The translations under genes and the position numbers were made by a program. The notes under the pieces are model-generated. The model was not told the origin of the DNA, did no database searches, and worked only from the letters and a program-made list of their open reading frames with translations. Of a DNA stretch of 41,701 nt, positions 9,656 through 11,923 are shown piece by piece. The DNA comes from Gemmatimonadota bacterium. GTDB lineage: Bacteria > Gemmatimonadota > Gemmatimonadetes > Gemmatimonadales > Gemmatimonadaceae. Within the stretch, counting starts at the first letter, position 1; each line of letters starts with the position of its first letter. The stretch is taken from positions 1 to 41,701 of the forward strand of contig JANYBD010000136.1 in assembly GCA_025360995.1 (NCBI GenBank). Direction: 5' to 3'.

Positions 9656-9922
9656 ATGCCATTCGCCGCACGATTAAATGCCAGACTGTGGATGGTCGTA
9701 CGTCTCGCCGGCGTGCTGTCACTCGCCGGCTGTGTCTCCAGTCCGCAGGCCGAAGCGACTCGCGCCCAGCAAATGATTGAGCTGGGCGACGCCGTCACGC
9801 AATTGCGACAGCAGACTGCCGAACTTCAGGGCGCGGTTGATTCACTGAAACTGGTGCTCGCCAAACAAGACACGACTAACGCCCGCCTCGCCAATGTGAC
9901 CGGCATCGTCGTCGTGAAATGA
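9656..9922 (+). CDS. small lipoprotein with coiled-coil
   Basis: MPFAARLNARLWMVVRLAGVLSLAGC lipobox (LAGC) followed by a heptad-like region. ATG 9656 is in frame with the track ORF 9419..9922. Confidence 0.7.
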   Translation: MPFAARLNARLWMVVRLAGVLSLAGCVSSPQAEATRAQQMIELGDAVTQLRQQTAELQGAVDSLKLVLAKQDTTNARLANVTGIVVVK

Positions 9923-10545
9923 GCCGATTCCTCGCGCTGGGTGACTCCTACACGGTCGGCGAGCAAGTCGCGCCCGACCAATGCTGGCCCAGTCAACTCA
10001 CGCGGGTGTTGCGGCGGCACGGTGTGATGCTCGACGATCCCGAAATTGTGGCGCGCACGGGATGGACGACGGATGAACTCGCGGCTGGCATTTCCATCGC
10101 ATCGATTGCTCAGGTCTTTGAATTGGTGAGCCTGTCAATTGGCGTGAACAATCAGTATCGCGGTGGCTCACTCGAGCGGTACCACCAGGAATTCGTGGAG
10201 TTGTTTGTTCAGGCAATCGGATTTGCGGGGGGCCACGTTGGACACGTGGTCGTGGTGTCGATCCCCGATTGGGGCGTGACGCCCTTCGCGACGCAACGAG
10301 CGCAAACCACCGGATCACCGGCGCAAGATCCCGCCGCAATAAGTAAGGCCATCGACGGGTTCAACGCGGTCAATCGTCACGAAACTCTGGCGGCGGGCGC
10401 ACGCTATGTCGACATCACGACGGCGTCGCGGGAGCGGCGCGGCAACTGGCTTGCGGCTGATGGACTGCACCCGTCTGGCGCGCAGTACGCCCGATGGGCC
10501 GAGCTAGTGACGCCCGCCGCGCTCGCAGCATTCGCGACGACATGA
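9919..10545 (+). CDS. SGNH/GDSL-type hydrolase
   Basis: ALGDSYTVGEQV (block I GDS), SIGVNNQYRG (block III GxNN-like), DGLHPSGAQY (block V DxxHP). ATGA overlap with upstream lipoprotein. Confidence 0.9.
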   Translation: MSRFLALGDSYTVGEQVAPDQCWPSQLTRVLRRHGVMLDDPEIVARTGWTTDELAAGISIASIAQVFELVSLSIGVNNQYRGGSLERYHQEFVELFVQAIGFAGGHVGHVVVVSIPDWGVTPFATQRAQTTGSPAQDPAAISKAIDGFNAVNRHETLAAGARYVDITTASRERRGNWLAADGLHPSGAQYARWAELVTPAALAAFATT

Positions 10546-10613
10546 ATCGCAGCGATGTGCGGCGTGTGGCAAATTCGCCATATTTCCTCCATGACTTCAG
10601 CATTGGAGCAGCA

Positions 10614-10847
10614 ATGATTGTCACGATCGAGTACTGCACGGTTTGAAACTATGAGCCGAGGGCTGTCGGTCTGGCGGCCGCGATTCGCGAAATGTTTCCG
10701 GATGCTGACGTGGGAATGATTCCCTCGAGCGGCGGACGGTTCGAAGTTTCGCTCGACGGCGTGCCGATTTTCGAAAAATCAATTCTTCGACGCCACGCAC
10801 AGCCGGGTGAAGTACTCGGCATTCTCAAGCAACGCGCCCACCTGTGA
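10614..10847 (+). CDS. SelT/SelW/SelH (Rdx)-family selenoprotein; in-frame UGA read as selenocysteine (predicted)
   Basis: Manual translation with TGA as U: MIVTIEYCTVUNYEPRAVGLAAAIREMFPDADVGMIPSSGGRFEVSLDGVPIFEKSILRRHAQPGEVLGILKQRAHL*. It has the family's YCxxU/C, Y-x-PRA, FP, SSGGRFEV and G-x-x-IF-x-K features. SD-like GGAG lies upstream of the ATG. The ORF track misses it because of the UGA at 10644-10646. Confidence 0.88.
10661..10679 (+). promoter_or_regulatory. candidate bacterial SECIS (bSECIS) hairpin inside the selenoprotein gene
   Basis: GGCUGUC-GGUCU-GGCGGCC: 7-bp stem (two G-U pairs) with GGUCU loop. 21 nt separate the UGA from the first loop base, and the loop starts with G. Confidence 0.7.
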
Positions 10848-11923
10848 AAATTGCGATCTCCACTGGTGGCGGCGACGCCCCGGGTCTAAACGCCGTCATC
10901 CGTGCCGCCGTGCTCTCCGCTATTGACCGCGGCTGGGAAGTGCTGGGTATCAAAAAAGGATACGCCGGATTGCTCGGCGACGACGAAGTGATTCCGTTGG
11001 GCCGTGACGAAGTGCGCGGGATCGGTCACTTGGGCGGGACGATTCTCGGGGCGAGCAATCGGGGAAATCCGTTCCATTATCCCGTGCGCCAACCCGACGG
11101 TAGCCACATCGAGATTGACCGCTCGGACGAGCTGGTGGAGAACGCCCGCAATCTCGGAATCGACGCGGTGATTTCAATCGGCGGTGACGGCTCACTCGCG
11201 ATCGCTCAGCGGCTCGCACAGAAAGGGATGCGCACGGTGAGTGTGCCGAAGACCATCGACAACGACGTCAGCGGCACGATCACGACTTTCGGATTTGACA
11301 CGGCCGTGAACACGGCGATGGAAGCGATCGACAAGTTGCATACGACCGCCGAAAGTCACGATCGGGTCATCGTGATGGAAGTTATGGGGAGGAGTGCCGG
11401 ATTTATTGCGCTGCATTCCGGCGTGGCTGGTGCGGCGCACGTGATTCTGATTCCGGAAATTCCTTATGATATTCAATGTGTGTGCGAGGCCGTGATGCTG
11501 CGCGATCGTCGTGGCCGGCATTTCGGAATTGTCGTCGCAGCGGAAGGGGCATTTCCAAGGGGCGGCTACGAGTCCGTGATGGGGGCATCGCTCCCGGGGC
11601 AAGCGAAGCGAGTTGGTGGGGTGGCGGAAACGCTGGCGAGGCAGATTCATGAAGGGACGGGCAAGGAGTGCCGGTCACTCGTGCTCGGACATCTCCAGCG
11701 TGGCGGAATGCCCACCGGGTACGACCGATTGCTGGCGACCCGATTTGGCGGCGCGGCGGTCAAGGCGGTCGAGGACGGCAAATGGGGTCATATGGTGGCC
11801 CTCCAGTCGCCGGACATTGTGACAATCCCGATCGAGCAAGTGCTGGGGAAACCGAAACGGGTGGATTTGGGGCACGACTTGGTTCTCACCGCCCGACGGC
11901 TGGGGATTTCCTTTGGCAACTGA
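10844..11923 (+). CDS. pfkA: 6-phosphofructokinase (group III-like)
   Basis: MKIAISTGGGDAPGLNAVIRA, SIGGDGSLAIA, PKTIDNDVSGT, GFDTAVNTAMEAID, EVMGRSAGFIALHSG, LGHLQRGGMPT. GTG start overlaps the upstream stop (GTGA). Confidence 0.96.
   Translation: MKIAISTGGGDAPGLNAVIRAAVLSAIDRGWEVLGIKKGYAGLLGDDEVIPLGRDEVRGIGHLGGTILGASNRGNPFHYPVRQPDGSHIEIDRSDELVENARNLGIDAVISIGGDGSLAIAQRLAQKGMRTVSVPKTIDNDVSGTITTFGFDTAVNTAMEAIDKLHTTAESHDRVIVMEVMGRSAGFIALHSGVAGAAHVILIPEIPYDIQCVCEAVMLRDRRGRHFGIVVAAEGAFPRGGYESVMGASLPGQAKRVGGVAETLARQIHEGTGKECRSLVLGHLQRGGMPTGYDRLLATRFGGAAVKAVEDGKWGHMVALQSPDIVTIPIEQVLGKPKRVDLGHDLVLTARRLGISFGN

Follow-up and report, generated by a model that had tools for sequence, protein, structure and literature searches.

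SelW-like selenoproteins have long been known. In the Sargasso Sea set, no selenoprotein family was more abundant (48 genes; PMC1088965), and a 2006 bacterial survey counted 10 SelW-like members (PMC1794560). The bacterial proteins of these two surveys are small and Rdx/thioredoxin-like, carry a CxxU motif followed by a bSECIS element after the UGA, and have homologues with cysteine instead of selenocysteine (Sec), all of which recurs at the locus described here. Unlike this locus, however, the SelW-like genes are not linked to Gemmatimonadota in the text consulted of PMC1794560, nor to phosphofructokinase in that of PMC1088965. Genes of this type can escape annotation, as described for the SelW genes of Epsilonproteobacteria (PMC4607533). 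For SelW of Campylobacter jejuni, Ribo-seq and proteomics have demonstrated that translation continues past the UGA to full length (PMC11955535); this organism belongs to another phylum, and the text consulted places its gene on a small RNA transcript (CJnc60) and does not mention pfk.

An unannotated SelW-family gene with an in-frame TGA

The window analysed here is a stretch of 41,701 nucleotides from a Gemmatimonadota bacterium (contig JANYBD010000136.1). The gene, which we call selW, comprises the following features:

10605–10608, + strand: GGAG, Shine–Dalgarno-like motif of selW, 5 bases 5' of the ATG
10614–10847, + strand: selW-like selenoprotein gene, 77 codons plus the TGA stop at 10845–10847
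10635–10637, + strand: TGC, Cys8 of the CxxU motif, invariant (translation and alignment)
10644–10646, + strand: TGA in frame at codon 11, the predicted Sec codon (codon conservation)

Translated with the in-frame TGA as Sec, 10614–10847 gives 77 residues, from MIVTIEYCTVU to ILKQRAHL, which is exactly the protein that an earlier, sequence-only reading of the window had quoted. That reading had also noted a GGAG motif before the ATG, which we find at 10605–10608, and the absence of a listed open reading frame, and indeed no ordinary frame of at least 60 amino acids in the window's list covers the gene. A Shine–Dalgarno-like motif precedes 30 of the 62 Gemmatimonadota homologues.

With Cys substituted for Sec, the product scores 62.3 bits against Pfam Rdx (PF10262; cut-off 22.6, residues 3–71) and 56.2 bits against the NCBIfam model TIGR02174 (CXXU_selWTH; cut-off 34.2), which bears out the family proposed from the sequence. 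The closest curated model by score is that of the C. jejuni type, NF041051 (SelTWH_Campy equivalog), for which the Cys-substituted product reaches 86.0 bits, below the curated cut-off of 88, and we thus assign it to the wider family only. The Rdx domain spans the whole product, and the predicted fold is the thioredoxin-like SelW fold: an AlphaFold model built from a 21-sequence alignment has a pLDDT of 92, and its best matches in the PDB are the SelW-family proteins 2fa8, 2obk, 2p0g and 3dex, with query-normalised TM-scores from about 0.8 up to 0.87. Mouse SelW (2npb) is also matched, with a query-normalised TM-score of 0.76. These bacterial Rdx structures are only 28–39% identical to the product in the fold alignment, and the profile alignment shows Cys at the Sec position of 2fa8, unlike in the protein of the window.

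The stretch 10614–10847 is thus confirmed as an Rdx/SelW-family gene with an in-frame TGA at the CxxU position, and is a new, unannotated member of its family. Our main reading, to which we give a probability of about 0.96, is that it encodes a SelW-type selenoprotein whose UGA codon 11 would be decoded as Sec via a bSECIS element. The product would be a small SelW/Rdx thioredoxin-fold protein with the active site Cys8-x-x-Sec11; SelB carrying Sec-tRNA-Sec would decode the UGA, recruited by a hairpin whose loop lies 21 nt after it; and the protein would probably act in thiol/selenol redox chemistry, as proposed for SelW.

Upstream, 68 bases before selW, lies a gene for a GDSL-type lipase/acylhydrolase (9919–10545), an arrangement also seen in several related loci.

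Codon 11 across homologues and the phylum

Scanning GTDB species genomes with patterns that left out codon 11 retrieved 52 homologues, spread over Gemmatimonadetes, Chloroflexi, Planctomycetota, Verrucomicrobia, Krumholzibacteriia, SAR324, Lambdaproteobacteria, Armatimonadetes and Acidimicrobiales. The Sec column holds TGA in 51 of them and TGT in the remaining one, from Chloroflexi, as expected if U occupies the CxxC/CxxU column where it had been placed from the sequence alone. Since these homologues from other genomes align on both sides of codon 11, where the frame had been described as open and family-like, it is not a chance frame.

Within Gemmatimonadota, a phylum of soil and water, selW is present in 150 of the 298 genomes surveyed, and nearly all of the matches listed contain one in-frame TGA; a strongly conserved and easily missed selenoprotein would thus be added to about half of the sampled genomes. 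A tRNA-Sec was called in 136 of the 150 genomes with selW versus 79 of the 148 without it (Fisher p = 2e-13, uncorrected for shared ancestry), and SelA is encoded in 11 of the 14 selW-bearing genomes that lack a tRNA-Sec call.

Only two of the matches listed, in genomes G129 and G052, are free of the in-frame stop, and both have TGC (Cys) at this codon. The G052 match is weaker and divergent, while G129 is a closed genome in which the Cys gene sits directly before pfk, in the same position as its Sec counterparts; neither a convincing tRNA-Sec nor SelA was found in either genome. The G129 gene represents a natural Sec-to-Cys replacement in a genome without detectable Sec machinery.

Two genomes with a TGA-containing selW depart from the general pattern. 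A search of the draft genome G038 returned no SelA match, and one of the single-contig genome G158 (selW at G158:C1:2876500-2880100, locus L110), in which SelA is encoded, returned no Rfam tRNA-Sec even at E 1e-7, possibly owing to a divergent tRNA-Sec or to a gap. Further, at one locus (L121, G025:C3:89800-93200) selW has an apparent frameshift after residue 51, and the remainder continues in another frame.

A bSECIS hairpin under silent-site constraint

The published bSECIS model describes an upper stem of 4–16 bp, a loop of 3–9 nt with G in its first two positions, a spacing of 16–37 nt and a minimum free energy of at most -7.5 kcal/mol (PMC13188914). The hairpin that follows the TGA lies within every one of these bounds:

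10661–10679, + strand: bSECIS hairpin; 5' arm 10661–10667, apical loop GGTCT 10668–10672, 3' arm 10673–10679

As RNA, it reads GGCUGUC-GGUCU-GGCGGCC, with a 7-bp stem, 21 nt from the TGA to the loop and a minimum free energy of -11.6 for the 24-nt hairpin segment. Across 59 Gemmatimonadota sequences, the six core pairs of the stem are individually conserved in 54–59, and 56 sequences have GGUCU, AGUUU or AGUCU as their loop. Pairing is also possible between the two outermost bases of the loop (A-U in 31 and G-U in 28 of the 59), as in the bSECIS model (PMC13188914).

Silent sites in this region hardly vary across the phylum. Their normalised entropy is 0.23 in codons 17–23 versus 0.67 elsewhere in the gene (p = 2e-4), with Val18 fixed as GTC (32/32), Gly19 as GGT (28/28) and Ala21 nearly so as GCG (48/50). 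Outside the hairpin, the codons used for Gly, Val and Ala in selW do vary. Over the Gemmatimonadota sequences, the mean hairpin energy is -13.4 compared with -9.1 for synonymous shuffles. The window's own hairpin is unexceptional by this measure, 33% of its synonymous shuffles being as stable (0.33), and RNAalifold recovers from the 59 sequences a consensus of only four pairs (-4.4), the strong conservation of the coding sequence leaving little two-sided covariation. We therefore judged the hairpin mainly by silent-site constraint and by the Cys orthologue of G129, over classical covariation: in that gene, codons 18–19 are GCG GCG, so that both the loop G-U and the top pair are lost. The support for the predicted element is thus phylogenetic and comes from the set of relatives, not from the window alone. 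The bSECIS check proposed in the sequence-only reading accordingly has a positive outcome, with a hairpin after the TGA and strong silent-site constraint.

Overlap with a phosphofructokinase gene

Directly downstream of selW, and absent from the earlier reading, lies an overlapping gene for phosphofructokinase:

10844–11923, + strand: 6-phosphofructokinase gene (pfk), Pfam PFK 331.8 bits
10844–10847, + strand: GTGA, overlap of the pfk GTG start and the selW TGA stop (sequence)

This arrangement is conserved, with pfk directly downstream of selW in 46 of 62 non-redundant Gemmatimonadota loci. The exact 4-nt overlap is found in 18 of the 46 pairs, that of the window included (start codon ATG in 8, GTG in 6 and TTG in 4); two pairs overlap in another way and the others lie up to 72 nt apart. 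The two genes are probably translated from one message. In open-licence literature we found no paper on selW of Gemmatimonadota or on a selW–pfk link, and nothing by title on the coupling of a selenoprotein to phosphofructokinase; the context is conserved, and we found no description of it there. It provides a genomic hint that a bacterial SelW may serve central carbon metabolism or the redox control of that metabolism.

The pfk product scores 430.4 bits against TIGR02483 (mixed-substrate PFK), whose cut-off is 430.55, and combines GGDGS with PKTIDND motifs; whether its substrate is ATP or pyrophosphate is uncertain.

The gene order invites a further reading, which would add to Sec decoding and not replace it. 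When selenium is low, ribosomes would stop at codon 11 and never arrive at the GTGA junction, pfk translation would fall, and the amount of the only phosphofructokinase in the cell would be governed by Sec decoding. We consider this unlikely. It draws on the frequency of the selW–pfk order and of its 4-nt overlap, and on the finding that pfk is the sole PFK detected in a search of its own assembly and that 22 of 23 other genomes tested likewise have a single PFK. It is also in line with a locus in G013 that retains the TGA, the hairpin and the ATGA overlap despite in-frame loss of the middle of selW. On the other hand, more than half of the selW–pfk pairs have no overlap. Four-base overlaps are, moreover, common in bacterial operons. 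The missing Shine–Dalgarno motif before pfk, which we had weighed as evidence for coupling, was rejected, as pfk genes without selW are equally poor in such motifs (4 of 21) and the absence shows no dependence. That the UGA of Gemmatimonadota selW in general also senses selenium, through translational coupling across the GTGA or ATGA junction, has low odds in our view. If it did, glycolysis would be linked to selenium supply, and the linkage allows a simple reporter test.

The G013 locus itself (L120, G013:C1:1102500-1106000) lies in a 5-contig genome with a tRNA-Sec. The internal deletion in its selW removes the GGRFEV strand region, and the remnant could be a decaying gene or a leader-like relic.

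Selenocysteine machinery in the same genome

Returning to the main reading, in which codon 11 would be decoded as Sec, the genes required for this are present. The source assembly is a metagenome-assembled genome of 2.5 Mb in 298 contigs, 83.5% complete, and all four genes that the sequence-only reading had proposed to look for (selA, selB, selD and that of tRNA-Sec) were found in it. The tRNA-Sec scores 78.4 bits and is called tRNA-SeC by ARAGORN, with anticodon UCA; selD is its neighbour on that contig, at a distance of about 140 bases; selA scores 460 bits, including its N-terminal domain; and selB scores 338.7 bits, with the GTPase, the SelB beta-barrel and winged-helix domains 2 and 3. 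In this fragmented assembly, selA, selB and selC sit on contigs other than that of the window. Among the genomes listed, all 11 others of the same genus have both a tRNA-Sec and a selW match.

This complete set of genes weighs against the possibility that the UGA is read as another residue, such as Trp or Cys, through a change of code or a suppressor. TGA is furthermore the ordinary stop codon of selW itself and of other genes in the window, a bSECIS hairpin is present, and the replacement by Cys accompanies the loss of the machinery, all of which makes such readthrough very improbable. A pseudogene, or a miscalled TGC or TGT in an ordinary Cys homologue, is what a single in-frame stop beside a Cys-type motif might suggest in a family with known Cys forms, but the presence of TGA or a Cys codon in all 52 homologues makes a sequencing error untenable, and cross-species conservation of the TGA in several phyla and in nearly all of the matches listed in the phylum survey, together with a frame open on both sides and silent-site constraint in the hairpin codons, already refutes this least probable reading on comparative grounds.

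Beyond selW, 79 of the 298 Gemmatimonadota genomes have a tRNA-Sec and no selW match, and there are thus probably further selenoproteins in this phylum.
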